IMG/VR virus record: IMGVR_UViG_3300027792_000041
Coordinates: 1-38,776 of that record
Direction: 5' to 3' (one strand)
From: a virus
Length of the DNA: 38,776 bases
The translations under genes were made by a program, and so were the position numbers. The notes beneath the pieces were generated by a model that worked only from the letters and a program-made list of their open reading frames with translations, had not been told where the DNA came from and did not search any database. Below, in pieces: positions 5,294-37,747 of the stretch. Numbering within the stretch: position 1 is the first letter of the stretch; the number at the start of each line of letters is the position of its first letter.

Positions 5294-6100
5294 ATGAAGA
5301 CAGAATGGGTGAAGATACCGTATAAAAGCAGGTTGGATGAGTTCAGCATAGTACCCTTAGGCGATTCACATATCGGCAACAAGGGGTGTGAACGGCAGAA
5401 GTTAAAGGATATGGTGCAATGGATAAAGGATAAGCCGAATTGTTATTGGATAGGGATGGGTGATTATGTGGACTGCATAAATTATACGGATAAACGGTTT
5501 GACCCGGCTACGATTGAAACTAAGTATCTGCAGGATTTGAGTAATTGTGTGCCGATGCAGGTATATGATGCGATAAATATTCTAAGACCAATCAGAGACA
5601 AGTGTCTGGGGATGCACAGGGGTAATCATGAAGAAAAAATCCGGCTGAACTACCATTTTGATGTGATGCATGAGTTTGAGAAGGAGTTGGGTGTGAAACT
5701 CTTAGAAGACTCTGCGTTGATACGTCTTACGTTTGCCCGTGAGGGGAGCAACGAGAAGAACGCCTTTGACATATTTAGTATGCATGGTCGTGTAGGTGGA
5801 CGTAAAGGTGGCAATAAAATAAATTGGTTAGAGGATCTGATAGGGTATGTTAACGCCGATATTTATCTTATAGCACATGCGCACATCAAGGCATCTGAGA
5901 TTAAGACGCAGTTATATGGTGATAACAAGGTGCATATCAAACAGAAGAAGAAGGTGTTGGGTGTCACAGGTAGTTTTATGCGGGGTTACACGGAGGATAC
6001 TAGTTCGTATGTTGAGAAATGGATGCTCCCGCCGACTGATATTGGTGTGATTAAACTTGTGATAATCCCGAATCGTGGTGATGTTCATGTTTCATTATGA
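5294..6100 (+). CDS. calcineurin-like metallophosphoesterase
   Basis: The 268-residue protein carries the full two-metal signature: GDSHIG (Asp24, His26), GMGDYVD (Asp57), GNHE (Asn111, His112), MHGR (His164) and HAH (His195, His197). Phage and archaeal virus members of this family act as phosphodiesterases or phosphatases on nucleotides or nucleic-acid ends; the substrate here is unknown. The start follows AAAGGATGGGAG at 5275-5286. Its last residues (NRGDVHVSL) resemble the last residues of the next gene, the homing endonuclease (HRGVDYVSL). That could be a trace of an insertion event. Confidence 0.93.
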   Translation: MKTEWVKIPYKSRLDEFSIVPLGDSHIGNKGCERQKLKDMVQWIKDKPNCYWIGMGDYVDCINYTDKRFDPATIETKYLQDLSNCVPMQVYDAINILRPIRDKCLGMHRGNHEEKIRLNYHFDVMHEFEKELGVKLLEDSALIRLTFAREGSNEKNAFDIFSMHGRVGGRKGGNKINWLEDLIGYVNADIYLIAHAHIKASEIKTQLYGDNKVHIKQKKKVLGVTGSFMRGYTEDTSSYVEKWMLPPTDIGVIKLVIIPNRGDVHVSL

Positions 6101-6552
6101 GGTATTTTATGAATGAATTAGAATGGAGTTATTTAGCGGGTTATATTGATGCGGATGGCTGTATTAGTTTAACTAAAAGCAAAGACGGGCATCATAATAT
6201 TTCTTTAGGAGTAAGTAGTATAAATAAAGGAATATTAGATTGGATTCTCGAATGTACGGGCTATGGAAAAATTACTGAAGTAAAATTTAATGGCAATATA
6301 TTTCATAAAACCCGTAAAAAAAAGCAATGGCTTTGGCGAACACATCATAATGGAATGAGATATGTTTTACCTAAAATATTACCTCATCTTAAAAATAAAA
6401 AAAGACAAGCAGAATTAACTATGGAATTTTTAGAGATATGCAATAAAACATCTGGTCGTTGGACATCTGAAATTGATAAAAAACGCAAACAAGAAATAGA
6501 ACGAGAAATGAAAATTTTAAATCACAGGGGAGTTGATTATGTCAGTTTGTAG
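6097..6552 (+). CDS. LAGLIDADG homing endonuclease (free-standing)
   Basis: The 151-residue protein has one LAGLIDADG helix near its start (WSYLAGYIDADGCISL, about 10-25), so it would act as a homodimer on a near-palindromic site. A beta-rich DNA-contact region follows (GYGKITEVKFNGN, KKKQWLWRTHH), then a helical tail. It starts in an ATGA overlap with the metallophosphoesterase; a second in-frame ATG is at 6109. The gene is more AT-rich than its neighbours, which fits recent arrival. No intron or intein signature is visible around it. Single-motif LAGLIDADG enzymes of 150-170 residues are the usual size. Confidence 0.9.
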   Translation: MRYFMNELEWSYLAGYIDADGCISLTKSKDGHHNISLGVSSINKGILDWILECTGYGKITEVKFNGNIFHKTRKKKQWLWRTHHNGMRYVLPKILPHLKNKKRQAELTMEFLEICNKTSGRWTSEIDKKRKQEIEREMKILNHRGVDYVSL

Positions 6553-6905: not shown

Positions 6906-7094
6906 ATGATTAAGAAGAAATGTAAGACGTGCAATGGTTTTGGGTTGTGGGCTGTTGGTGAGCATGTGCCGATGGGCGAGATGGATGCTAGGGATGGTAT
7001 GCCTACGGTTGCGTGTCCTTGTTGTGGTGCTAATCCGAATAGTTATGATTTTCTTAGACCTAAAAAGAAAACAAAAAAGAAGGTGATTAAATAA
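6906..7094 (+). CDS. 62-aa DnaJ-type zinc-finger protein
   Basis: The ATG at 6906 follows AAGGAGGAAAAATAAGG, a very strong site. The product has CKTCNGFGLW and CPCCGANP, resembling the CxxCxGxG knuckles of the DnaJ central domain, and ends in a Lys-rich tail (RPKKKTKKKVIK). Small proteins of this kind are common in phage early regions; the partner is unknown. Its stop shares a base with the next start (TAATG). Confidence 0.75.
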   Translation: MIKKKCKTCNGFGLWAVGEHVPMGEMDARDGMPTVACPCCGANPNSYDFLRPKKKTKKKVIK

Positions 7095-7495
7095 TGTATA
7101 CGCTTGAATACATAACTTATCCGCTAATATTTCTGTTCCTATGGATAACAGGTTTCCTGTGGCATGAGCTATGGCATATAATGGGCTCAGGCACACTATA
7201 TGGGCAGATAAACATACATGGGTTGAGTATGAGCGCCAGCCCCGCTAACCTGCTCGCAGGTGGTCTGGGATCAGGGCTTACATTCTTGTTGTTTGCGTTG
7301 TTGATTTACCCCTACACTTTGTTAAGTTTGGTGTATATGGTTGTGATTGTGGGGGTAGTGAACATAGTGTACTCTTTTTTTGAGAACAAGTATCTGCCTC
7401 GTTGGGGGAACGACAGGCGGTATACGTTGGGGCGGTACGGCATATATGTGGGTGTTGTTACTGTTATGGTAGTTATATATTGGGTGGTGTTCTGA
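7094..7495 (+). CDS. integral membrane protein with HExxH motif (S2P/M50-like metalloprotease candidate)
   Basis: The 133-residue protein has about four membrane segments: residues 7-30, 52-72, 76-95 and 115-132. The first carries FLWHELWHIMGSG, with HELWH at 24-28, the HExxH zinc motif embedded in a transmembrane helix as in site-2 proteases. After the third helix comes LPRWGNDRRY (Asp107), a possible third zinc ligand in place of the usual LDG motif. The protein is shorter than typical M50 enzymes, so it may be a minimal core or a non-proteolytic relative. It could process host or viral membrane proteins; the virus encodes several exported ones. The start is fixed by a TAATG overlap. Confidence 0.65.
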   Translation: MYTLEYITYPLIFLFLWITGFLWHELWHIMGSGTLYGQINIHGLSMSASPANLLAGGLGSGLTFLLFALLIYPYTLLSLVYMVVIVGVVNIVYSFFENKYLPRWGNDRRYTLGRYGIYVGVVTVMVVIYWVVF

Positions 7496-19042: not shown

Positions 19043-19975
19043 ATGACGATAACAACAAAAAACACGGGAATGAAACTAGAGTATATAGCGGAATCGACAC
19101 GTGGTACTCCAGTCAGCAGCGGTACTCTTCAGACACCCAGTGATGCAGTAAGCAACGTGAACCTCTCAGGTAGTAACAACGCCGGCATAGTCTATACCAT
19201 TGGCGACTACGATGGACAGGATACGACATATGGTCTCAAGGACTATAAACTGAGTTTCGAGTATGATATCCAGCGCATAGAAAACACCAGCCCAAAAAAG
19301 TGCAATACTCTCACAAAGAGTATGCAGTATTATGCTCTTACGAGATCAAGCGGACTATTAACACCATTGACTTTCTACGTACATACTAAGAGCGATGCCA
19401 CATATGTCTGCAAAGGATGTGTCGTTGACAGCTGGAATCTCAGTGTGACACCAGGCGGACGACTTCACGCAACAGTTAATGTCAGCGTAGCGAGTGTAGC
19501 ATGCGAGATAGGAAATTATCCCAGTCTCACAGACAGCACAGCATGGGGCAACACCTTCGAGACATTCCAAGGTGCATCCATTACACGTGCCGGTGGTTTC
19601 GATGAGGGTGTAAGCGGTTTCACAATAACCATAAACAACAACCCAACTGGCGTACCAAACATAGGTCTCTCAAGGTATCATAGTTACTATGAGGGATTAC
19701 AGAATCTCAGCGGCACGGTAAATGTCATACTCAGCAGCGGTGGTAAAACCGACTGGGAGGAGATGACAGGCGCAGGTGAGGATGCATCGCCGACAGAAGC
19801 ATCTATAGTGTTCAACACAGGCACAAGTACGACAAGCGGCAACAAGAGTATGAAGTTCACATTCGCTAACGCAGCATATACTAATCTACCAGTGAATTTC
19901 AATGCTGAAGACGGATATGTTACTAGTGGAGTTGGTTGGATAGCTGAGAGTGTAACACTAGCAGAGTATAGTTGA
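19043..19975 (+). CDS. tail tube protein
   Basis: The 310-residue protein is beta-rich with the style of siphovirus-type tube proteins: MKLEYIAESTRGTPVSSGTLQTPSD at the start, then a mid segment (DSWNLSVTPGGRLHATVNVSVASV) and a late strand set (GVSGFTITINNNPTGVPNIG, YYEGLQNLSGTVNVIL). Proteins beginning with 'Y-x-x-E-x-x-x-G-x-x-P' are typical tail tube monomers. It stacks as hexamers forming the tail tube. No sheath gene follows, arguing for a non-contractile tail. Confidence 0.78.
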   Translation: MTITTKNTGMKLEYIAESTRGTPVSSGTLQTPSDAVSNVNLSGSNNAGIVYTIGDYDGQDTTYGLKDYKLSFEYDIQRIENTSPKKCNTLTKSMQYYALTRSSGLLTPLTFYVHTKSDATYVCKGCVVDSWNLSVTPGGRLHATVNVSVASVACEIGNYPSLTDSTAWGNTFETFQGASITRAGGFDEGVSGFTITINNNPTGVPNIGLSRYHSYYEGLQNLSGTVNVILSSGGKTDWEEMTGAGEDASPTEASIVFNTGTSTTSGNKSMKFTFANAAYTNLPVNFNAEDGYVTSGVGWIAESVTLAEYS

Positions 19976-19984
19976 GGTTAAATC

Positions 19985-20560
19985 ATGGCAGCAGCAACAG
20001 TAGTAGTAAAAGAACTCAACGGAGCAGCAGGTAGTCAAACATATACTACCTGTGGTAGTACAGCGACAAGCTACTTTAGAGTCAGTGACGCACATGGTAA
20101 CAGTACACCAAGCTATAAGATACCTATACCAGCAGCGGGTGTGAATTATAGTTACTGGAAGACATATTGCGCAGAGGTCACAGCGAACGCATCAGCTAAC
20201 ACACTTGACAACTGGAAGTTCTACTTAGCTAGTTATGCCGGATGGGTCACTAAACTCGGTAGCAGCGGAGCAGTGAAAGCAGGGAAAAGCGGTACAACCT
20301 ATGGACTCAAGATAGCGGATTATGAACAGTCACTTGGACAAACCGATAGCAACGGATGGGCAGGACAGGAACTAAACGCAGGACATACAGGCATAGATAG
20401 CGTAGCAAATGCGCCGACAACAGCAACACAATACGATAACCACCCGATAACCAGTACGGGCAGCACAAACTTTTTCACACTGCAGATACATGTTGACACA
20501 GATGCTACTTTCGGGGCACTTGGTGCTTTAACCGCATATATTCAGTATGACGAAAGCTAA
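19985..20560 (+). CDS. 191-aa beta-rich virion protein
   Basis: Ala/Thr/Gly-rich (MAAATVVVKELNGAAGSQTYTT...) with a C-terminal strand pair (TNFFTLQIHVDTDATFGALG ... AYIQYDES). The composition is typical of virion surface proteins. It sits right after the tail tube gene and overlaps the next gene by 14 nt. It may be a second tail or head decoration protein; no family is recognised. Confidence 0.65.
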   Translation: MAAATVVVKELNGAAGSQTYTTCGSTATSYFRVSDAHGNSTPSYKIPIPAAGVNYSYWKTYCAEVTANASANTLDNWKFYLASYAGWVTKLGSSGAVKAGKSGTTYGLKIADYEQSLGQTDSNGWAGQELNAGHTGIDSVANAPTTATQYDNHPITSTGSTNFFTLQIHVDTDATFGALGALTAYIQYDES

Positions 20561-20984
20561 AATAAATATGGGTGAGGAGGGCAACACTCCTCATCATTGT
20601 TATTTTTGGATTGCCACACTAGTTGATGGTAGTGTCATCCCTGAGTATGATTTCGATAACCTGAAACATAACCATGTCAGGGATTTACCAGTTGAGTTTG
20701 TCACTAAATTCAGTTGGTATCCAGTGAGTCTCACAATGATAGAACGTGTACAAGACATGTTCAACGAAATATTAGTCTTACCGTTTTCACAGCAGATACA
20801 CACAATAAACATATCATTGGTTGAAGGGGAGCGATTAAGGATACACCCCGTCTGGCGTAACACAGCATCTTTCATAGGACATGACGGGATGGAAGTCAAA
20901 TATGCTCTTTTTAAAAACCTGAAAAACAACAACGTGGAAGGTTTCTGGGTTAAAGAAGATGGGAGTATAACGCAGGAAGAATAA
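20547..20984 (+). CDS. 145-aa hypothetical protein (host-interface or tail-linked)
   Basis: Starts inside the previous gene. Contains YFWIATLVDGSVIPEYDFDNLKHNHVRDLPVEFVTKFSWYPVSL (in pieces), a pattern 'W-x-A-x-L-x-DG-x-x-I-P-E-x-D' seen in small phage and archaeal virus proteins of unknown role. A later INISLVEGERLRIHPVWR strand follows. It is immediately upstream of the glycosyltransferase gene, so it could belong to that module. Confidence 0.6.
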   Translation: MTKAKINMGEEGNTPHHCYFWIATLVDGSVIPEYDFDNLKHNHVRDLPVEFVTKFSWYPVSLTMIERVQDMFNEILVLPFSQQIHTINISLVEGERLRIHPVWRNTASFIGHDGMEVKYALFKNLKNNNVEGFWVKEDGSITQEE

Positions 20985-20989
20985 AAAAA

Positions 20990-21937
20990 ATGACATATTA
21001 TTTTCTGGATGGGGGTGGGGGTTGGCGGTACATCATACCACATATTAGAAAAGGTGATACCATCATAGGCAGTAACAACTCCATAAACGATTTTTTTGAG
21101 AACTTCTCAGAAGCAAACGTGATACGCCTAAAAACAAGACCGAGCATGTACGACAAACACGGTTTCCTGAGAAACATTTTATCGGCTAAAAAAGAATACA
21201 AAAAATATTTCAGACACATAAAAAACGACAACATAGTTTTATTCGGTGGTCTGACAACAATAACATTTTTTTATTACATGAAGAAACTGGCTAGACATAA
21301 CAAGATACAATTAGCAGTACCAAACAAGGATTTTAAGTTTTTCAGGTCGAAACCACGTTTCACAAAATACTACATACCACTCAAAATAATAGGATACCTA
21401 CTGGGCATAGACGCTGGCGTCACAATACTACTAGGCAGACCAATGTGGTATCTGAAAGAGAAGACAATAAAAAAATATGATTACATGATATATAAGCAGA
21501 AAGAACCAAAGATAAGGATGCCGGATAAATACAAGGAGTTGCTCAAAGGCAAAAAAAACCTTGTGCTATTGAACGATTTTTCTACACTCTGCGAAAACCA
21601 GACAGAGATATTTGATTATATCAACAAGCTTTTCAGACCAGAGGATACAATCCTGAAGGATCATACGCGCAACCCTAACCTGAATTGTAACCCACGTTTC
21701 AAATGTTTCCCATCATATATACCATCTGAGATTCTTATCAACTCATATGACTGGGATAATGTTGTTTCTATTTATATCACAAAATCTTTGTTGTTAGATA
21801 CTGAGAAAAAGAAGATATCTTTGTATAATTTTTTTAAGTGGAAGTTTCCTGTCAGCGACGACTGGATTCAGAAGTATAATGACTGTCATGTTTTTCTGCC
21901 TGAGGATGAGGCGGAGCTTAAAGTGTTTTTGAAATAG
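20990..21937 (+). CDS. sialyltransferase-like glycosyltransferase (GT52/polysialyltransferase pattern)
   Basis: The 315-residue protein lacks a signal peptide and looks like a GT-B fold. Its C-terminal half carries the ordered motifs of capsule/LOS sialyltransferase-like families: KDH-x-R (223-227, in place of KPHPR), PSYIPSEILI (241-250, like the IPxE box) and VVSIYITKSLL (258-268, like the 'S-x-SSAL' box). The N-terminal part has FGGLTTITFFYYMKKLARHNKI. Such enzymes use CMP-sugars. Its place between tail genes and sequon-rich exported proteins suggests that it modifies virion or cell-surface glycans. Several signature residues are replaced, so donor and activity are uncertain. Confidence 0.65.
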   Translation: MTYYFLDGGGGWRYIIPHIRKGDTIIGSNNSINDFFENFSEANVIRLKTRPSMYDKHGFLRNILSAKKEYKKYFRHIKNDNIVLFGGLTTITFFYYMKKLARHNKIQLAVPNKDFKFFRSKPRFTKYYIPLKIIGYLLGIDAGVTILLGRPMWYLKEKTIKKYDYMIYKQKEPKIRMPDKYKELLKGKKNLVLLNDFSTLCENQTEIFDYINKLFRPEDTILKDHTRNPNLNCNPRFKCFPSYIPSEILINSYDWDNVVSIYITKSLLLDTEKKKISLYNFFKWKFPVSDDWIQKYNDCHVFLPEDEAELKVFLK

Positions 21938-21938
21938 G

Positions 21939-21954
21939 TTTTTTTTAAAAAAAA
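21939..21954 (+). terminator. T8A8 palindrome, possible terminator
   Basis: TTTTTTTTAAAAAAAA follows the glycosyltransferase stop. It may act as a U-tract terminator or as an intrinsically bent spacer before the GAGGAGAAGAGGGG ribosome site of the beta-helix gene. Confidence 0.4.
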
Positions 21955-21982
21955 TTTATGAGGAGAAGAGGGGAAGTAATAC

Positions 21983-24058
21983 ATGGTTGATGTTAGGACA
22001 CGGTTTAACGCTATTCTGGTTTTTTTCATATTGTTGTTTTCGTTAATCTTTGTCACACCATTGTTTGTTCAGCGTGTCAGGGCTGTTAACACTGTTTATT
22101 ATGTTTCTAATACTGGTAATGATGGTAATACGGGTCTTGCTGGTGATGATGCTCATGCTTGGAAGACCATTGGTAAAGTGACTACTGCTATGGGTGATGG
22201 TACTATACAGGTTGGTGATGACGTTCTTTTTAAGCGTGGTGATACTTGGACTGCTACTGATTGGCATTATTTGTATGTTAGGAAGGGAGGTACAGTTAGT
22301 AATTGGATGATTATTGGTGCGTATGGTAGTGGTGATGCTCCTGTTATTGATGGTGATAATGTCTCTTATTATGGTGTTAGCCTTGCTGTGGAGAAGGTTT
22401 CTTATGTTAGGATAGAGAACTTGGTTTTTATTTACCAGGCTGGTTATGGGATAAGGTGTGAGAACTTTAATAACTCTGATATTTATGTTTTTAATGTGAC
22501 TGTATCTTATAATGGTGATAATGGGATGTATTTTGACCAGTGTTCTAATATAACTGTTGAGAATTGTACTGTACATGATATACACACAGGGGGGATTGTT
22601 TTTTATGGTTCTGCTATTAATCCGATAAATAATGGCAGGATATTGAATTGCACGACATATAATTGTGGTCTTGTGACAACTTCAGATGGTATCATTATAC
22701 ATAGTGGTGATGGTGCAGGTACTCATTATGGTCAGAATTTCCTTGTTAAAGGTTGCCTTAGTTATGGTAATTCTGAGCAGGGATATGATTTTTATGGGGA
22801 AAGAGGAACAGCTGTACCTTCTGGGAATATATATATGAAAGATTGTGTGTCACATCATAACACTCTTGGTGGTGTTGATCTAGGTGGTTGTATCAGCAAT
22901 GTGACTATCGATGGTTTTTTATCATATAATGATAGTGGTAATTTTGGGATAGCACCTGGAGACGGAATAAATGAATTAATCATTAGAAATAGTGCTATAT
23001 ATAATACGTATAAATATTCCATACTAACATACTCAGATTATGGTTATTATGATGAGAATTTGAGTATTTATAATAATGATTTTGTTGCAGATGATTATAG
23101 CCTTGGTAATGCATTTATTTTCTTTTCAGCTTATAGTAAAAACATAGTGGTGAAAAATAATATTTTTCTTTCTCTTGATACAAGTGCTCCTAGTTCATTG
23201 ATTAGATATAGTGCTAGTAACCCTAATTCTCCTTCTGAGACAAACAGTGTATATGTTAATAATATGTATTGGGATAAGGCTGGTGCTGTTGGTAATCAGT
23301 GGTATTATGATGCTTCTAATAATAACTGGGCTGCCTGGGTTGCTCTTGCTGAAACCACGGGAGAGTTAAGGGATGACCCTGAGTTTGGAGATGCTGTTGG
23401 TCATGATTTTTCGTTGAATGATACCAGCCCTTGTATAGATGCTGGAGACTGGTTGACCTTTACTGTTGGTGGTGGTACAGGTACAACAATAACTCTTGAT
23501 GATGCTAGTTATTTTACAGATGGTTATGGGATGATAAGTGGTGACCTTATCTGTATTAACAATGATTATAATCTTATGATAACTGATGTTGATTATACTG
23601 CGAACACAATAACAGTAGATAGGAGTATAACCTGGGTTGATGGAGAAAATGTTAGTTTAACATATAATGGTATATCCCTCGATATTGGTGCAGAAGAGTA
23701 TATTAATGATTTTAATGATTTAGTTATCCCATCTGACAGTGATTTTGATTACGCACATGGGGTGAGATATGGTAGCGGTACGACTAGCGACCCGTATATG
23801 ATATGCAACTGGACTATACAAAATCTGACGGTTTACAGTACGACAAAGAATTTTACGATACAGAACTGCACAGTAGAATATCACATTAATATAACAAGTG
23901 TATCAAATGAGAGTTTAATTGAAATCAACGACGTGTCAATGGATGGTACTGATGCAGGTAAGCATAGTATGTGCTGGATTATAGTGAACAAGGCAGGGAC
24001 TATAACACTTCATAACAACTCGTTTGTAAACCTAGCGTATTCGTTTATAGGATGGTAA
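21983..24058 (+). CDS. exported right-handed beta-helix surface protein
   Basis: The 691-residue protein opens with a basic segment and a hydrophobic helix (ILVFFILLFSLIFVTPLFV, about 11-29) ending near VRAVNT, a signal peptide. Next comes VYYVSNTGNDGNTGLAGDDAHAWKTIGK, the start typical of pectate-lyase-like beta-helix proteins. Many coils of the form N-x-T/S-V-x-N-C follow (SNITVENCTVHD, NGRILNCTTYNCG, KNIVVKNNIF). About 18 N-x-S/T sequons suggest archaeal N-glycosylation. A polysaccharide-binding or -cleaving role is inferred from the fold. A signal peptide is unusual for a tail fibre, so it may sit on the infected cell's surface. Codons are strongly T-ending up to about 23.7 kb, then change. 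Confidence 0.8.
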   Translation: MVDVRTRFNAILVFFILLFSLIFVTPLFVQRVRAVNTVYYVSNTGNDGNTGLAGDDAHAWKTIGKVTTAMGDGTIQVGDDVLFKRGDTWTATDWHYLYVRKGGTVSNWMIIGAYGSGDAPVIDGDNVSYYGVSLAVEKVSYVRIENLVFIYQAGYGIRCENFNNSDIYVFNVTVSYNGDNGMYFDQCSNITVENCTVHDIHTGGIVFYGSAINPINNGRILNCTTYNCGLVTTSDGIIIHSGDGAGTHYGQNFLVKGCLSYGNSEQGYDFYGERGTAVPSGNIYMKDCVSHHNTLGGVDLGGCISNVTIDGFLSYNDSGNFGIAPGDGINELIIRNSAIYNTYKYSILTYSDYGYYDENLSIYNNDFVADDYSLGNAFIFFSAYSKNIVVKNNIFLSLDTSAPSSLIRYSASNPNSPSETNSVYVNNMYWDKAGAVGNQWYYDASNNNWAAWVALAETTGELRDDPEFGDAVGHDFSLNDTSPCIDAGDWLTFTVGGGTGTTITLDDASYFTDGYGMISGDLICINNDYNLMITDVDYTANTITVDRSITWVDGENVSLTYNGISLDIGAEEYINDFNDLVIPSDSDFDYAHGVRYGSGTTSDPYMICNWTIQNLTVYSTTKNFTIQNCTVEYHINITSVSNESLIEINDVSMDGTDAGKHSMCWIIVNKAGTITLHNNSFVNLAYSFIGW

Positions 24059-24064
24059 AAACAG

Positions 24065-27000
24065 ATGGATATGATAATTTCTGTGGCATTGGCAATAATT
24101 TTCTTTGTTGTGCTCACAGTATTGTTTTTTTTCCGTGACCGGCTCATGAATTGGGTTAGGCGAAACAAAAAGAAGGCAATTGGAATCGGTGTTTCAATAC
24201 TACTGGCATCAGCGGGCACAGGATATATCCTTAGTCTAGGTGATGAACAACCACCATTTATTGACCCTGCTGCATTCATATGGCATCTAGGAAACAGCTA
24301 TGGTGGTATGCCGCATTGGGAGATAAACAAGACATATGCTAAACAGTTTCTTAAGGACAATATGAAATGGCGACTACAGGCAAGTCCGAATAATAATACG
24401 TGGTATGATGCAAATGAGTTGTTAAAAATCGGTTTGGATTGGAACGATATTGATTGTAGTTATAAGGTCACGCTCACGTTGAACACCACGGGTGCACCGC
24501 AGGCTTTGTATTATCGTTTTGACCTGGCATGTGATAAATCATTGAAGCAGTATGCTGAGATAAATGGTTATGTGTGGACCCTCACTATACCTGCTAATAA
24601 TACGATGGATTATACTATATTGTTCAACTGGTCAGATATTAAACCGCTTATACAATCAGGCAAGGTTTGGTATGACAGGGGTGTTACAAACAACTTTTTC
24701 TGGTTCAGGATACAAAGTGTGAATAAGATAGGTGTCGGCAAGGAGTTTGTTGTTGACCCTGTTTATGGTGTGATTCCCGCTGCTGTTATTGAAACATGGG
24801 AATGGGACCAATCTGAGGGTAGGACAGTTGGTTTAAAGGGTTTGGTTCGTGTTAATAACAGTGAATATTATCTTACTGTTGCATCTGGTGATGGTGATGG
24901 TACAGGTGGTGGTGATGGTGATGGTTGGGCTACTGTCATTCAGGTTGACAGCGATAATGGTAATATTATTAATGCAGGGGTTATAAGTAGATATGAATAT
25001 GATGGCTCTGATGGTTCTAATGCTTGTGTTCTTCATATTCCTGGTACTGATAAATATGTGGTTTATTATTATGATACAGGTAGTGCTAAAACAACTTTGG
25101 TTACTTTGCAGGTGTGGGATAATAATGGTACTATAAAACAGGGTGTTATTGATAGTCAGCAGTGTACATATGATATTATATGTAGTTATTTTGCTGAGAT
25201 AGATTTTATAGCTGTCACTGATAATGTTTATATGGTTGCTTATTCGCAGACAACCACGAATGATGGTTATATTGAGACCTGGTGGATTGATTATGATGGT
25301 ATGATTAATAACACTCGGTTGGATATTGAGGAGTTTGATGAGACCTATGGTAATTATCCTCGTCTTTGTATGGTTGATAGTAACACTGTTGCCATAAATT
25401 ATCTTAGTGCTAGTTCAACTGGCAGTTATGCTGTTATAACTCATAATGTCACTTCTTCTGGGATTATCAGCAATACTCCTGCTGATAGTTGGGCTTATGA
25501 GACAGAAGTATCAAGGGCTGGCGGTGGTAGTGGTAATACACTGGCGTTTAATAAAGTCGGTAGTAATGTTTTTGCTACTACATATGTTGCTACGAATTTC
25601 AGTATTTATTGCAAAACCATTGGTATTTCTGATAAGGGTATGATGACGAACTCTTTTATTGATAAATTGTTAGTGACTACTACTACTGGTGCTAATTGTT
25701 TGATAACTTTTATTGTACATAATCCGTTGGTTGCTAGTGATGGTAATGGTATTATGGGTTGTACATATATTGTTGATAACACGTTATATGATGGTTATGT
25801 GAGAACATGGAATATTTCGAGTGCTGGTGTTATTGGTAATGCTATTATTGATTATTTGCTTTTTGCTGGTACATTGACATATAATGCCTGGGTTGTGTAT
25901 GTCAATCAATCATTTTATTTCAGTGTTTTTACTGGTGCTAGTAATGATGGTTTTTGTACGTCATATAGTATTGCTACTAATTGGGCTAGTCCTGTTTTCA
26001 GCAGTCCGTCACCAACCAACAGTTCTGTGGATGTGAGTCTTACGCCGAGATGTAATATCACAGTGAACGACAAGAATGGTGATACTATGAGAGTCACCTT
26101 TGCGGAGAACAGCACAGGCAGCTGGGTCAACCGACAGACAAACGGCAGCGTAGCAAACGGTACGTATAGATGGGATTATACACAGGCATCAAGTTACAGC
26201 AAGAAATATTGGTGGAAAGTCTACTGTAACGACGGTCAGCATAATGTGAGCAAATGGTATTGTTTCACCACAGGAGAAGAGCCTAATTCACCGCCTACGA
26301 ACACTTATGTCGGCGCATGGGATTTATTAAAAAACATTGAATGGGAGTTCAACACAACACAGGTGAAAGCACCACCCTGGACGTTAAACATCTCAATCAG
26401 CGATCCCGATGGCGACCGTATGAACTGGACTATCTACCATAATGATGGTGGTACGTGGAAGGTTGTCGCATCTGGTACTAACAGTCCTAACGGAACTAAT
26501 ACTACGACTAACACGACATGGATAGATGAATACGGCGTACAATATGATATAAGTGTTAACATCACAGATGGCACAGTATGGCTCAATAACAGCAGACATT
26601 TCACGACAAACAACCCGCCGGATATATCAGATTATTCCCCTGCTAACGAGGCGACAGGGGTTGAGCTTACACCACGGTGTTCCATTACGATAGATGATGA
26701 CGACGGTGATACGATGGATGTACTCTGGGAGGAGTACCAGGTGCCAGTGTATGCTGATGTGCAGACAAACAATACAGTGGGCAACGGCACCTATACATAT
26801 GATTATGTTAATGCAACGAATTTTATGACTAATTATGGCTGGCGTGTAAGCGTCGATGACGGCATTGATATAACTGAGCTTACATTGTCGTTTACAACAC
26901 GTGCGCAATACGCCACTAGTGTATCGTTAAGTGGTCTTACAAGTGATTGGAATGTCACGTGGAATGGTACTACGCCGACTGGTAGCACAAATGTCCATAC

Positions 27001-28768
27001 TGTTTTCATCAACAACAGCGGTGACAGATATGAGACTGTAGAAATAAATATTGTTGTTAATGATACAATGTTGGTCGATAACATCTATTTCTGGGCTATG
27101 TGGCTTAACGACACTGTTAACAACACACAGATTTATACAGACAACATAACAGTATGGGTATCAGACGATAACGTCACATGGGGTGTACTGCAGCATGATA
27201 TAGGGAACGGCATGGGACGTTTCCCACATACTATGGGTTATCTACATTGGAATTGGACTACTGAGCCTGATGGTGTCGAGGCATTCCCATATACACCGAT
27301 AAAAGGTTATGTTATATCGAGTAACACCACATTGTATGCTCGTTATCAACTCAACATAACAGACACAGCCGTTGAAGGCATATATTATAATCTTACAGCA
27401 TGGGAGATAAGTGTTGTCAATGAAAGCAGCGGTGATGGCATCGGTGTAATCAATAGCGCTAGTCATACATGCAAAGCAAAAGTGGAACAAGGATGGATTA
27501 ACACAGCACCGGTACAAAGCAACCCAGCCCCCGCTAACAACAGTTATGATAACACACGAACAATAATGTTGAATATAACCGTTGGTGACATCGATGATGC
27601 GACACAGGATATGAGTATCACATGGCAGACGAACAGCAGCGGAAGCTGGGTGACATTCGGCACTAACAACACTGTGAACAACGGCACATACAGACAACCG
27701 ATGGAAAACTTCACGATACCAGGCACTAAATATTGGTGGAGAATCATACTCACTGATAACGAGGGTGGATGGGATAACGACACATATTGTTTAACAATGA
27801 ATAACGACACAGTCTGGTATAAAAGCAGCGGTTACAACTGTTACCTCGAGATAGATAGTCTGAGTTTCGACCCGATAATTGTGAGTAACAGTTACGTTAT
27901 GTTCAACACAACTGATTTCAAAGTCACATCAACCAACAGGACTAACATCAGCATAATTTTTATTAACACAAGTATAACAGATGCGACAGCTGGTGATTTG
28001 CTCGTTGATTTCTGTGCGCATAACACCGGTGGTATCGTATGGTTCAACATAAGCGGTTTCACTTACACAGTAAATTATAGTGTTTATAAGAACAGTGTAT
28101 TGTTAGGATATGATGTCGCAGATGTCAACGGTGACATAAGTTTTTCGGATACAATCAACGGTTACACGCCACGTTACCAAATATATTTCAACATAGTGGG
28201 ATCAGTTTCATATAATACTACGATACGGAACACGGGTATCGATTATTTTGTATGGCTGGGTGGTAACACAACAGCTGTTAACGTAGCATCTATTATCACA
28301 GGTTTCAATGAAGCAGCTGAGTATATAGCGATATGGAATGAAAGTCAGGCGGCATGGGATAACACAAACGGTCTCTGGGCAAAATATTATGGTGATGGTA
28401 GCGGCGACAACTTCGACATTCAGACATTTGATGTCGTAAGATGTTATCTCACGGACAGTGGTACACAGAACTTCGATATGACTTCTAACCCTGATATGAA
28501 CTACACAAAAAGCTATAACATAACATTGAGTAATCTTACAAGAAACAAGGGTTTTAATTACACTGGATACAACAGGGTGTCTTCTACGACACTTGACACT
28601 ATCAACAGCAGCATAGGTATCCCGGAGGGTTATTATGTTGGTAGATGGAATGAGACGACATATACATGGGATTTTTGGATAAGTGGTTTCAGCACAGTGG
28701 ATTATACTGTTGAGAGATGGGCTGTTGTTATGACAAAAGTTGATGGTACAAGGTGGTGGAATACATAG
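24065..28768 (+). CDS. giant membrane-anchored, sequon-rich Ig-like surface protein
   Basis: The 1567-residue protein has two N-terminal membrane helices (about 3-23 and 38-56). Next come a beta-rich domain (about 75-240) and a repeated-strand region that reads like a beta-propeller (about 245-635, with recurring D-x-D-G-x-I/M-x-N motifs). At least three Ig/FnIII-like repeats follow, each opening with an [SN]P-x(2)-[NE]-x(3)-V-x-L-TPRC-type motif (PTNSSVDVSLTPRCNITVND, ANEATGVELTPRCSITIDDD). The C terminus has more beta domains and many Trp/Asn. I count about 65 N-x-S/T sequons. The style matches Thermoplasmatota surface proteins. Codon usage changes near 25.99 kb, exactly where the Ig repeats start, suggesting a mosaic. 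Confidence 0.8.
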   Translation: MDMIISVALAIIFFVVLTVLFFFRDRLMNWVRRNKKKAIGIGVSILLASAGTGYILSLGDEQPPFIDPAAFIWHLGNSYGGMPHWEINKTYAKQFLKDNMKWRLQASPNNNTWYDANELLKIGLDWNDIDCSYKVTLTLNTTGAPQALYYRFDLACDKSLKQYAEINGYVWTLTIPANNTMDYTILFNWSDIKPLIQSGKVWYDRGVTNNFFWFRIQSVNKIGVGKEFVVDPVYGVIPAAVIETWEWDQSEGRTVGLKGLVRVNNSEYYLTVASGDGDGTGGGDGDGWATVIQVDSDNGNIINAGVISRYEYDGSDGSNACVLHIPGTDKYVVYYYDTGSAKTTLVTLQVWDNNGTIKQGVIDSQQCTYDIICSYFAEIDFIAVTDNVYMVAYSQTTTNDGYIETWWIDYDGMINNTRLDIEEFDETYGNYPRLCMVDSNTVAINYLSASSTGSYAVITHNVTSSGIISNTPADSWAYETEVSRAGGGSGNTLAFNKVGSNVFATTYVATNFSIYCKTIGISDKGMMTNSFIDKLLVTTTTGANCLITFIVHNPLVASDGNGIMGCTYIVDNTLYDGYVRTWNISSAGVIGNAIIDYLLFAGTLTYNAWVVYVNQSFYFSVFTGASNDGFCTSYSIATNWASPVFSSPSPTNSSVDVSLTPRCNITVNDKNGDTMRVTFAENSTGSWVNRQTNGSVANGTYRWDYTQASSYSKKYWWKVYCNDGQHNVSKWYCFTTGEEPNSPPTNTYVGAWDLLKNIEWEFNTTQVKAPPWTLNISISDPDGDRMNWTIYHNDGGTWKVVASGTNSPNGTNTTTNTTWIDEYGVQYDISVNITDGTVWLNNSRHFTTNNPPDISDYSPANEATGVELTPRCSITIDDDDGDTMDVLWEEYQVPVYADVQTNNTVGNGTYTYDYVNATNFMTNYGWRVSVDDGIDITELTLSFTTRAQYATSVSLSGLTSDWNVTWNGTTPTGSTNVHTVFINNSGDRYETVEINIVVNDTMLVDNIYFWAMWLNDTVNNTQIYTDNITVWVSDDNVTWGVLQHDIGNGMGRFPHTMGYLHWNWTTEPDGVEAFPYTPIKGYVISSNTTLYARYQLNITDTAVEGIYYNLTAWEISVVNESSGDGIGVINSASHTCKAKVEQGWINTAPVQSNPAPANNSYDNTRTIMLNITVGDIDDATQDMSITWQTNSSGSWVTFGTNNTVNNGTYRQPMENFTIPGTKYWWRIILTDNEGGWDNDTYCLTMNNDTVWYKSSGYNCYLEIDSLSFDPIIVSNSYVMFNTTDFKVTSTNRTNISIIFINTSITDATAGDLLVDFCAHNTGGIVWFNISGFTYTVNYSVYKNSVLLGYDVADVNGDISFSDTINGYTPRYQIYFNIVGSVSYNTTIRNTGIDYFVWLGGNTTAVNVASIITGFNEAAEYIAIWNESQAAWDNTNGLWAKYYGDGSGDNFDIQTFDVVRCYLTDSGTQNFDMTSNPDMNYTKSYNITLSNLTRNKGFNYTGYNRVSSTTLDTINSSIGIPEGYYVGRWNETTYTWDFWISGFSTVDYTVERWAVVMTKVDGTRWWNT

Positions 28769-29832
28769 CGTTACCAGTACAATATCTAGTATATGGTTAC
28801 ATCTACGATAGTGGCAGCAGTCCTGTTAACGGTGCGACAGTCAATATAACTGATACTAGCAACCCGCAGGGCACGGCAACGGGTACGACAAACGCCGCTG
28901 GTAAATATCAGATTAACATAGAAAACTATGCTACTGATGGGGATACGATACGTGTACGCTGTGGTGTTGACAACGAGTTCAAAGACAGTACATTCACATT
29001 GGATATAAGCCATGCTGCGAAACGAGTTGACCTAACACTTGTGGATACAACTAAGGATTTCAGCCTCAACTCACAACTCTACAAACGCAACCTTTTAAGC
29101 TATAACATCAACGGTTATTTAAACAAACTTCAATCAAAGGAATATAAACTAGATGGTTGTCTCAGGAAGATAACATCAAAGGATTTTGTTTTAGACAGCT
29201 GGTTAAAAAAAGTGTTATCGAAAGACTACAACCTGAATGGTTATCTAGGCAGTTTCAACTCGTTGGCATACACATTAAACGCAGATTTGTATGCAAAAAA
29301 AACAGGGCAATATTCCTTAGATGGTATGATAAATCAGTTGATATCAAAAGATTTCCATGTGGACGGGTATCTCAAAAAAACAGCATCTGAGGATTTCTTG
29401 TTAAACGCAGGTCTTTTAAAAGTACAATCAATCAACATGGTTTTAGACGGTCATCTCAAAAAACAGAACACATCTAGTTATAATCTCGATGGTACGTTGA
29501 AACAGATAGAAAGCAAAGAAAATAGTTTAGATGCATGGTTATACAGTCAGGTGAACAGCGAATACATACTGGATGTTTATCTTAAAAAGATACAGCAACA
29601 AAACTATAATCTAAATGCAAGTCTGTTAAAAATAAGATTGGTGAACAGCCATCTCGATGGTTACATCGGGGTAAGCAAGATTCTAAATTTTGGTTTTAAC
29701 GGCGAACTAGAATACATCCATCGAAAATATGTTGAAGCATCTGCGCCGGATACGACAATCAGAGGATACACGCCATCTATAAACAGCATGCAGAATAAAA
29801 CACCTGATACAACATACAAAGGATTCATATAA
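28753..29832 (+). CDS. carboxypeptidase-regulatory-like domain plus 16 x 14-residue repeats
   Basis: The 359-residue protein begins at GTG 28753 (or 28756), overlapping the previous stop. Residues about 8-95 form a CarboxypepD_reg-like domain (VYGYIYDSGSSPVNGATVNITDT ... GTTNAAGKYQINI). From about 103 to 326 come sixteen uninterrupted 14-residue repeats of the pattern [YF]-x-L-[DN]-[GA]-x-L-x-[KQ]-x-x-x-[KQS]-[DE]. A short tail ends in PDTTIRGYTPSI and PDTTYKGFI, itself a small repeat. The regular repeat suggests a solenoid or fibrous stalk. No signal peptide is seen, so it may join the fibre or surface module to the virion. Confidence 0.75.
   Translation: MVEYIALPVQYLVYGYIYDSGSSPVNGATVNITDTSNPQGTATGTTNAAGKYQINIENYATDGDTIRVRCGVDNEFKDSTFTLDISHAAKRVDLTLVDTTKDFSLNSQLYKRNLLSYNINGYLNKLQSKEYKLDGCLRKITSKDFVLDSWLKKVLSKDYNLNGYLGSFNSLAYTLNADLYAKKTGQYSLDGMINQLISKDFHVDGYLKKTASEDFLLNAGLLKVQSINMVLDGHLKKQNTSSYNLDGTLKQIESKENSLDAWLYSQVNSEYILDVYLKKIQQQNYNLNASLLKIRLVNSHLDGYIGVSKILNFGFNGELEYIHRKYVEASAPDTTIRGYTPSINSMQNKTPDTTYKGFI
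29059..29730 (+). repeat. 16 tandem 42-bp coding repeats
   Basis: The repeat tract codes for sixteen 14-residue units in perfect register (first unit at 29059, last at 29689-29730) with no insertion or deletion. The nucleotide copies are diverged, so this is an old duplication kept by selection on length and period rather than a fresh microsatellite. Confidence 0.85.
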
Positions 29833-29853
29833 AAAAAATGGAGAAAAATATTT

Positions 29854-30189
29854 ATGACGCAATGTATAGAACTCAGTGAAGGGGATTACGGCTGGGCTGT
29901 GACAGTATCGTTATACAAAAGCGATGATGACGTAACAGTCGAAAGTCTGACATCAGCATCAAAAGTAAGCCTGGATATAACACGACTTGATGAGACACCG
30001 CTTGTACAAGATGCTGTTGTGACAGTAACCAATGCGACAACCGGCACAGTAACATTCACACCATTAAGCACATGGTTCACAAGTGCAAAACTAGGCGACC
30101 GCAGCGACTACTTGGCGATATTCAAAATATATTATTCATCGGGTAAGAAACACAGCTTCAAAATACCCATGTACATCCACCTGCATTAA
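29854..30189 (+). CDS. BppU-like beta-sandwich tail protein
   Basis: The 111-residue protein has the pattern of the N-terminal domain of baseplate upper proteins: EGDYGWAVTVSLYKSDDDVTVESLTSASKVSLDITR, then TVTNATTGTVTFTPLSTWFT and a closing strand (DYLAIFKIYYSSGKKHSFKIPMYIHL). Similar modules attach fibres to siphovirus baseplates. The start follows ATGGAGAAAAATA. It is the last gene of the inserted surface module before the tail chaperone. Confidence 0.65.
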   Translation: MTQCIELSEGDYGWAVTVSLYKSDDDVTVESLTSASKVSLDITRLDETPLVQDAVVTVTNATTGTVTFTPLSTWFTSAKLGDRSDYLAIFKIYYSSGKKHSFKIPMYIHLH

Positions 30190-30231: not shown

Positions 30232-30633
30232 ATGGACAGGAAAATAAAAATCGTTGGTATCAACAACGATGAACCATTTGAAGTACCAAAAAGGAAACCG
30301 AAACACCGTATATTATTATACGAGAAGATGGCGGAACTGGCAAAACAAAACCCGGAGTTGTTCAAAAACCGTGAATACAGGATACAGATGGAATCCGCTT
30401 ACCTGGCACTATACATAATACAGGAGAAGTTCCCTAAAATAACAATAGACCACATACTGAACATATCAGATGACATGGAAGATTATGACAACATACTGAG
30501 GTTATCATGCATAGTATATGGGACGGATTATGATTCTCTAAAAAAGAACCTGTTACCAGCAAAAGAAAAAAATGCTGATGATGAACCAAATTTTCAGAAA
30601 CAGAACCCGAAGATTATTACACCCAACAACTAG
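30232..30633 (+). CDS. tail assembly chaperone, short product (gpG-like)
   Basis: The 133-residue soluble helical protein (MAELAKQNPELFKNREYRIQME..., FPKITIDHILNISDDMEDYDNILRLSC) immediately precedes the frameshift extension and the tape measure gene, the universal chaperone position. It contains the slippery heptamer A AAT TTT at 30588-30594, 13 codons before its stop. In phages the short product is made in excess and the -1 product in minority; both coat the tape measure during tail assembly. Confidence 0.8.
   Translation: MDRKIKIVGINNDEPFEVPKRKPKHRILLYEKMAELAKQNPELFKNREYRIQMESAYLALYIIQEKFPKITIDHILNISDDMEDYDNILRLSCIVYGTDYDSLKKNLLPAKEKNADDEPNFQKQNPKIITPNN
30588..30594 (+). other. programmed -1 frameshift site (A AAT TTT)
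   Basis: In the chaperone frame the codons read CCA AAT TTT CAG, so the heptamer A-AAT-TTT fits X-XXY-YYZ exactly. The -1 frame becomes open just before it (the last in-frame TGA is about three codons upstream) and stays open for 83 residues. This is the conserved gpG/gpGT arrangement. Confidence 0.85.
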
Positions 30634-30858: not shown

Positions 30859-32853
30859 ATGGCTGATGAAGTACATAAGATAGATGTCGTGCTTGAAGCG
30901 ATTGACAAGGCTAGCGCACCGCTTAAACAGATTACCGGCGGGTTTAACATTCTTACCAAGCAGGGTCTGTTGGCTGGTGCAAGTTTTGCTATTGTCAACA
31001 AAGGTCTTGAGCTTGTGATGGATGCCCTGAATGGTTTTGTTGAGTACCTGCAGAAAGGTATTGAGATGAACCGTCAGTTTGAGCTTGAGATGGTACGTCT
31101 CACTAACAGTTTCACTAGTTTTGCTAACATGGGTGTCGATAGTCTCAAGGATAGTGTTAAGAGTTTCAGTGTGATGTTCGCCACAGACATTAACACAGTC
31201 ATACAGGGGTTAAGGGATTTCACAAGTGAGGGATACAGTGCCAGTGAATCAATTAGTATGCTATTCAAAGCTCAGCAACTCGCTAGTGCCACAGGTGAGA
31301 ACCTCGGTGATGTCACAAATACTATTACTACCGCTCTTGGGGTTTTCGGGTTGAGTAGTAAATCAACAGGTAATATAACTGAATGGCTCAATAAGATAAT
31401 GGGTATCACAGGTATGACTGCGGCAGATATCAACCGGATACTTGGTGGTGCTGCCGATGCCATAAATGATACAGGTATTAGTTATGCGGAGATGGGTGAT
31501 ATTCTTGTCGACCTTGATGAAAAAGAGTATAGTACAAAGACTATGCTCACGGAGATAAAAACACTTCTTGATGATTACCCGTCATCTATTGATGCTGTTG
31601 TTGGTAGTTTTGCTGAGCTAACGGGTGGTGTTGAGGATGTTGGTACTAAATTCGAGAAGATAACAGGGACAACCCAGTTCACAGCAGATATGCGTAAACA
31701 GCTTGCATCTATCAGCCAAATGGATTTAGCTGGTGGCATGGATGTAGATAAAATATTCGGTGAACAACGGGTTAAAGAAGCAAGAGAATATTTTAATTTA
31801 ATTAATAAAGATGGTATAACTACTCTTGAACAATTCAATAGTGAGATGGGGCAAACTGCTTTAAAAAGTAAAAATCCTGATTTTGGATGGATTGGTTTAG
31901 ATTCACAGTTAGTTCAACTTATTAGAAGTATGTATGCATATAATGATGCAATTGAGGAACAAAACCGTCTCACAGATGAAGCAAAAATAGAGGAACAAAA
32001 CACACGAGTAGCAACTTTGACACAAAACCTTGTCGACCTTGACAACAGCATGATTGCAAATATAAGTAATATAGACCAGTGGAACGCCGAGATAAACAAA
32101 GCTAAAGACATTCATCTTCTCAACGAAGACGTACGGTATATGAGCATGGGTCTTAAAGACGCCAGTTATGCTATGAAGATACATAACAGCGAGACACGCA
32201 ATCTGGTGGACAGCATACGAAATTATAGGGATGAGATAGAGGAGCTTAACCGTGCGAACCAAATGCTCACAATACAGGAGAATAAGAACAACATCGAATC
32301 CATGAAGATACAACTCAACGCTATGGACCACAGGGGTCGTATGACACGTAACGAAAAAAACAAACTCAAGGACATAGAAAGAGCTAACCTTGAGTTGCGT
32401 ATTAATTTAGCTGAGAATCAGAACGAGATAGATGAGAAAACCCTTGATTTGTCACCGCTTGAGGAACGTTTTGAACTCATGAGCATGTGGTACGATGAAG
32501 AGCTCTATCTGATAAAAAACACGTATGCGGAAGAAGTTGCTGCGTTGCAGAAAAAGATAGATGATGAAAGGGCGCTTTATAATCAGAGTCTGCGGGATAA
32601 AGCGGATTATATGTTAAAACTTAATTCTCTAACAGGTACATCAAACGTACCTGTTATTTATGGTCCTCCTGCTCCATCATCTGGTAGGATACCTCTCTCA
32701 GGGACGGCGAGTAGCAATAACGTGAATGCCAGCATCAAGGTGAATGCAACTATACATAACTACACAGATACAGAAGCCCTAGTAGAAAAAATATCACAGG
32801 GCATAGCAGGTGGTCTACTAGGCAATGTGACAAGCAAATATAGGATAGGATGA
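30859..32853 (+). CDS. tape measure protein
   Basis: The 664-residue protein has the usual features. A start with DKASAPLKQITGGFN is followed by a hydrophobic segment (GLLAGASFAIVNKGLELVMDAL) and the conserved TMP-like block (FELEMVRLTNSFTSFANMGVDSLKDSVKSFSVMFATDINTVIQGLRDFTSEG in pieces). A long coiled coil follows (about 370-570). The start lies after TGAGAGGCTTATTTTT. At 664 residues it predicts a tail of about 100 nm using the general 1.5 angstrom per residue rule. It is A/T-rich and unduplicated. Confidence 0.92.
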   Translation: MADEVHKIDVVLEAIDKASAPLKQITGGFNILTKQGLLAGASFAIVNKGLELVMDALNGFVEYLQKGIEMNRQFELEMVRLTNSFTSFANMGVDSLKDSVKSFSVMFATDINTVIQGLRDFTSEGYSASESISMLFKAQQLASATGENLGDVTNTITTALGVFGLSSKSTGNITEWLNKIMGITGMTAADINRILGGAADAINDTGISYAEMGDILVDLDEKEYSTKTMLTEIKTLLDDYPSSIDAVVGSFAELTGGVEDVGTKFEKITGTTQFTADMRKQLASISQMDLAGGMDVDKIFGEQRVKEAREYFNLINKDGITTLEQFNSEMGQTALKSKNPDFGWIGLDSQLVQLIRSMYAYNDAIEEQNRLTDEAKIEEQNTRVATLTQNLVDLDNSMIANISNIDQWNAEINKAKDIHLLNEDVRYMSMGLKDASYAMKIHNSETRNLVDSIRNYRDEIEELNRANQMLTIQENKNNIESMKIQLNAMDHRGRMTRNEKNKLKDIERANLELRINLAENQNEIDEKTLDLSPLEERFELMSMWYDEELYLIKNTYAEEVAALQKKIDDERALYNQSLRDKADYMLKLNSLTGTSNVPVIYGPPAPSSGRIPLSGTASSNNVNASIKVNATIHNYTDTEALVEKISQGIAGGLLGNVTSKYRIG

Positions 32854-37351: not shown

Positions 37352-37747
37352 TTATATTCTTCCGCTGCAGGTGGCGATCACATACTCGCCACAGGACTGC
37401 GAATGTTTTACACGTACGTCATCGAGATATATCTCCGCAATGATACAGGCATTATCGTTGACCTGTCCGCTGATATAAACAAAATCACCCTCACGCATAC
37501 CATATAGTTTGTATGTGAACGGCAAAGGTTCGTCCGTGTATTGACTTGTGCCCCCGTCCTGGTTTTCCATTGTTACATCAACGGTATGTCCTGGTGGTCC
37601 ATCTATCTTGTATGTCACCGTGTATGTCTTGAAATAATCATCCATGTATTCATAATCGTCTGTATCTGTGGATGTGCAACCAGATAGCATCATTGTTACT
37701 GTCAGCAGGATAATACAAAATATGGTTGTTTTTATTCTGTTTTTCAT
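37352..37747 (-). CDS. MmpS-like lipoprotein
   Basis: The 131-residue leftward product starts with a basic signal segment (KNRIKTTIFCIILLTVTMMLSGC) with lipobox LSGC at residues 20-23; after cleavage Cys23 would carry the lipid. An acidic linker follows. The mature domain then has the strand order of MmpS/DUF-type lipoproteins: VTYKIDGPPGHTVDVTMENQDGG, PLPFTYKLYGMREGDFVYISGQV, ACIIAEIYLDDVRVKHSQSCGEYVIATCSG. It lies apart from the structural genes with its own promoter, so it is likely expressed early or in a carrier state, perhaps altering the cell surface or blocking superinfection. Lipobox processing in archaea is established; its function here is inferred. Confidence 0.75.
   Translation of the reverse strand: MKNRIKTTIFCIILLTVTMMLSGCTSTDTDDYEYMDDYFKTYTVTYKIDGPPGHTVDVTMENQDGGTSQYTDEPLPFTYKLYGMREGDFVYISGQVNDNACIIAEIYLDDVRVKHSQSCGEYVIATCSGRI

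Follow-up and report, generated by a model that had tools for sequence, protein, structure and literature searches.

Late-operon cargo genes and cell surfaces modified by viruses are each known kinds of viral trait. On the side of the cell, the S-layer glycoprotein is a receptor of tailed archaeal viruses (PMC10544981, PMC10384203), and in the case of HRTV-DL1, one of these viruses, a host surface protein, Hlac_3088, is proposed to conceal the S-layer receptor (PMC10544981). On the side of the virion, the mycobacteriophages Che8, Corndog and Myrna glycosylate their capsid and tail tube with enzymes of their own (PMC12363180, citing Freeman et al. 2023). What is new at the locus described here is the combination of late-operon cargo with a putatively virus-modified cell surface. 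Its largest product, a giant encoded at 24065-28768, is like Hlac_3088 a putative membrane-anchored surface protein, but Hlac_3088 is host-encoded and has a PGF-TERM sorting signal (PMC10544981), while the giant is virus-encoded and has N-terminal membrane segments. In the literature on virus-encoded archaeal surface proteins, no direct precedent was found.

The analyzed stretch (hereafter the window), a linear viral contig 38,776 b long, was assigned by Pfam profiles to a tailed virus (terminase PF04466, portal PF06381, MuF-like protein PF04233, tail tube PF18906, tape measure PF10145) whose host is probably archaeal. Close relatives of the capsid, tube, portal and tape measure proteins were absent from the collections searched, and IMG/VR queried with the giant, capsid, portal, repeat protein, Ig unit and tape measure returned an identical second contig or nothing. 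The terminase recovered 28 further viral contigs (33–62% identity), with G002 as the sole relative in which the capsid protein was detectably similar as well. A terminase/portal contig whose terminase is 62% identical (L052 1-3507, JAGGZI010000008.1) is binned as Aenigmatarchaeota while being viral by its own content, which either hints at the host or reflects an error in binning. Other genes of the window include a LAGLIDADG-type homing endonuclease-like gene at 6097-6552 (+; PF00961, E 2.5e-4, slightly under the cut-off) and, at 7094-7495 (+), a multi-spanning membrane protein with no Pfam match and an HELWH motif that resembles membrane metalloproteases.

The tail tube gene (19043-19975, PF18906 E 3.5e-7) and the tape measure gene (30859-32853, PF10145 E 7.4e-10) are separated by 10,883 b from stop to start, all genes of this region being on the + strand. 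In four viruses with related terminases used as comparators, the same distance is ~0.59 kb (G002), 0.55 kb (G006), 0.86 kb (G003, tube confirmed as PF06199) and 0.87 kb (G005, tube assigned by resemblance), and all four lack the extra block; in G002, one chaperone-sized gene alone lies between tube and tape measure. In the window, a presumed tail chaperone (30232-30633, 133 aa, assigned by position and size only) precedes the tape measure, and small genes hold the equivalent place in the relatives. The sequence-only reading, which held that some 10 kb had been inserted between genes that are normally adjacent, is thus borne out by synteny, while the limits it drew for the block (20990-29832) are too narrow: the small genes at 19985-20560 (191 aa), 20547-20984 (145 aa) and 29854-30189 (111 aa), none with a family match, have no counterparts in the compact relatives either, and 19985-30189 describes the insert better. 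Its genes follow each other head to tail in the same direction, overlapping by at most 16 b or separated by no more than 45 b, and are therefore probably co-transcribed with the tail genes. A phage-fibre-like gene, recognized by eye and by a weak match in the relative L049, is present at the customary downstream place (35119), so that the insert is not needed as a fibre.

The two largest products of the insert carry signal or membrane segments, as the sequence-only reading had proposed. The first (21983-24058, 691 aa) is a right-handed beta-helix protein (Beta_helix PF13229, 62.5 bits vs. a cut-off of 25.9, E 4.5e-17) with a single strong hydrophobic segment at its N-terminus, in agreement with the exported beta-helix protein claimed there, and it has 18 N-glycosylation sequons where 10.8 were expected (p 0.011). 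The second is the giant (1567 aa), which has two N-terminal membrane segments (approximately residues 4-22 and 38-56) and 65 sequons, the number previously estimated, vs. 28.5 expected and a maximum of 45 in 2000 shuffles; no other protein of the window reaches this degree of membrane segments and sequon excess. Because the loop between the segments is basic, the positive-inside rule places the C-terminal part of the giant, ~1500 residues, outside the cell as a prediction. Export or membrane anchoring together with sequon enrichment is shared with archaeal S-layer glycoproteins; S-layer membership was nevertheless rejected, as no S-layer family in Pfam or NCBIfam matched and a C-terminal membrane segment is absent. 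No whole-length homologue was found in anything searched, and for this reason no function can be transferred to the giant. A further candidate viral surface protein is encoded on the opposite strand (37352-37747, -), a small lipobox-containing lipoprotein that is weakly MmpS-like (PF05423, E 0.045, below the cut-off).

A 95-residue unit occurs three times in the giant (residues 645-739, 854-948, and 1151-1247), with a weak fourth copy at residues 773-849, and the stretch built from it spans 25997-27808. A three-row model of the unit (pLDDT 77) has six strands and was matched by Foldseek mainly to Ig/Fn3-type domains with high probability; an Ig/Fn3-like fold is likely rather than certain, because no match had an E below 0.001. 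The unit profile also matched 12 of the 156 Aenigmatarchaeota genomes, in frames of up to 5046 aa (best match 37% identity, E 4e-9), and two of the matched proteins are sequon-rich (120 vs. 50 and 102 vs. 37). As the search covered this one phylum, the unit may well be present in other archaea too. The Aenigmatarchaeota giants L063 and L064 resemble the viral giant in the unit (37% and 28% identity) and in their strong sequon enrichment; they differ in being cellular and larger and, in the parts read, in having neither a beta-helix partner nor tail genes nor the other domains of the viral giant. The claim that these products are odd as virion parts and fit display on the infected cell is favored by the sequon excess of the giant and by the homology of its Ig unit to the archaeal giants. 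A location of the products on the cell surface is hence supported, as judged from signal and membrane segments, sequons and an archaeal Ig unit.

When synonymous codon usage in the insert was compared with that of the virion genes, two blocks stood out by strongly T-ending codons (third position T roughly 50–77%, C 2–13%), one from 21983 to ~23700, which is the beta-helix domain, and the other at ~24785-25955, in the middle of the giant. The stretch that separates them is intermediate, and the Ig array, 20990 and 28753 have virus-like usage. These foreign or host-type blocks are confined to the two exported proteins and follow domain borders inside both genes; the right edge of the block in the giant coincides with the start of the Ig units, with the frame unbroken. 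The mosaic is best read as a domain-level acquisition from one type of donor. The same codon usage, along with the near absence of relatives, could be expected if host surface genes had been captured by chance or misassembled into the contig and had no function in the virus, a reading that we regard as very improbable. Both frames (691 and 1567 codons) are intact over the codon-usage edges, neighboring genes overlap or abut, and a second contig, IMGVR_UViG_3300027726_000013, is identical to the window across 608-25599, barring two gap openings near the end of that contig, which supports the left junction of the insert; the right-hand junction comes from the present window as its single source.

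The gene that follows the giant (28753-29832) encodes an N-terminal domain that is Ig-like by PF13620, beneath the cut-off of that family, and sixteen 14-residue units with the consensus S-K-D-Y/F-x-L-D/N-G-Y-L-K-K-I-x. At lag 14, the BLOSUM62 score averages +0.96 vs. -0.82 in shuffled sequences (shuffle maximum -0.33), in line with the repeat protein described from the letters. Also as described, this protein and that of 29854, the last two before the chaperone, have no predicted signal or membrane segment; BppU_N identity for 29854 was tried, and the profile test was negative. At 28740-28780, the genes of the giant and the repeat protein share 16 b, the latter starting with GTG in another frame ahead of the stop of the giant; this could reflect translational coupling or a fusion that was lost. 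A frameshift fusion of 24065 and 28753 was considered as well and was rejected, since nothing beyond the overlap was found in its support.

Upstream of the beta-helix gene, 20990-21937 encodes an orphan of 315 aa that had been called sialyltransferase-like, and this claim failed in every sequence test. The protein matched no Pfam or PHROGs family at E 1, the full-library Pfam scan thereby leaving GT42 without a match; NCBIfam and PDB gave no match of note, and nothing useful came from phages, plasmids, IMG/VR or GTDB genomes. The profiles PF07388 and PF07922 were empty even at E 10. Pairwise alignments remained near the level of shuffles, with p 0.07 against a KpsS-like archaeal protein and p 0.11–0.50 against the glycosyltransferases of the relatives, and together with the empty profiles they give no support to a GT52/polysialyltransferase identity. 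Weak matches in Aenigmatarchaeota (E 0.01–0.03) were judged to be due to chance, and a single-sequence structure model (pLDDT 34) was uninformative on a GT-B fold. The arrangement KDHTR ... PSEIL ... SIYITKSL is one that we take, by eye, to resemble GT-B enzymes. Of the proposed viral surface-glycoprotein set, the two largest products, which are of surface-glycoprotein type, are thus retained, while a sialyltransferase or proven glycosyltransferase at 20990 is not.

Recognizable sugar genes are present in the relatives, where cassettes of glycosyltransferases and methyltransferases lie in the neck/tail-tube module of G003, G005 and G006 (L040 4769-8639, L041 5874-8734, and L039 9912-11998). 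In G003, five genes separate the tail tube from the neck genes, and the cassette contains a GT2 (PF00535, E 3e-7), a methyltransferase (E 4e-12), PF13524 (E 9e-14), a GT4 (PF00534, E 1e-13), and a weak UDP-sugar dehydrogenase below the cut-off. The neck module of G005 has two GT2-containing proteins, one with an additional methyltransferase domain, and in G006 a GT2 (E 5e-25) adjoins a methyltransferase-like gene. This site recurrently takes glycan-related cargo, and virion glycosylation therefore remains a serious rival for 20990. The orphan could be a divergent glycosyltransferase that acts on the tail tube or other virion proteins, with 28753, 29854 and perhaps 21983 as virion appendages; signal-less Ig-like and repeat proteins are common in phage virions, as seen in the viral Foldseek matches. 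None of the relatives examined has a large, signal-bearing and sequon-enriched protein, and the occurrence of sugar genes at this place without such surface proteins counts against display; for a sugar enzyme located here, glycosylating the virion would be just as natural a role. The glycosylated capsid and tail tube of the mycobacteriophages give this rival a precedent, with the shared idea of a tailed virus that has its own sugar enzyme, located within the structural module in the relatives; the mycobacteriophage system includes no exported sequon-rich giant, and 20990 is unlike its enzymes in not being a recognizable glycosyltransferase. Such an enzyme, the mark of virion self-glycosylation in phages, was found in G003, G005 and G006 and not in the window. 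Since 20990 fits no glycosyltransferase family, and since signal and membrane segments, present in the two largest products, do not suit virions assembled in the cytoplasm, we consider decoration of the virion somewhat unlikely.

Our leading, though tentative, reading is that the insert is late-operon cargo through which a glycoprotein comes to be displayed on the infected cell, possibly in the service of receptor masking or exclusion. Late in infection, the beta-helix protein would be secreted and the giant inserted into the host membrane with ~1500 residues outside, where host N-glycosylation would decorate its exposed sequons. The displayed giant might then behave as a surface glycoprotein of the host does and cover or alter the outside of the infected cell, most likely hiding the receptor or competing with it, so that rival or returning virions would be excluded. 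Two of the domains involved would have come from a donor that favors T-ending codons, to be joined to virus-adapted parts. Exclusion or masking is a function that we infer because tailed archaeal viruses are known to use S-layers as receptors (PMC10544981, PMC10384203). In an extended form that we hold to be unlikely, the virus would build a glycoprotein coat of its own on the infected cell, composed of a membrane-anchored, sequon-rich mimic of host surface proteins and a secreted beta-helix protein, both produced late and alongside the virion proteins, with the glycan finished by a divergent sugar enzyme of the operon, and would thereby keep sibling or rival virions from binding. Export, sequons and Ig features would also fit if, instead of excluding virions, the surface proteins altered how persistently infected host cells adhere or contact each other, and adhesins typically contain beta-helix, Ig and repeat domains; the genes sit within the late virion operon, though, and the window proteins that were scanned included no integrase, which leaves a role in adhesion or conversion decidedly improbable.

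If display for receptor masking or exclusion is true, the tail operon of a tailed virus supplies a mask, or a substitute, for the surface of an archaeal cell. Receptor masking would then be directly testable in archaea, where tailed viruses are known to use the S-layer glycoprotein as a receptor (PMC10544981, PMC10384203). The recurring sugar cassettes in the neck/tail-tube module of the relatives point to an accessory-gene site that is tied to glycans.
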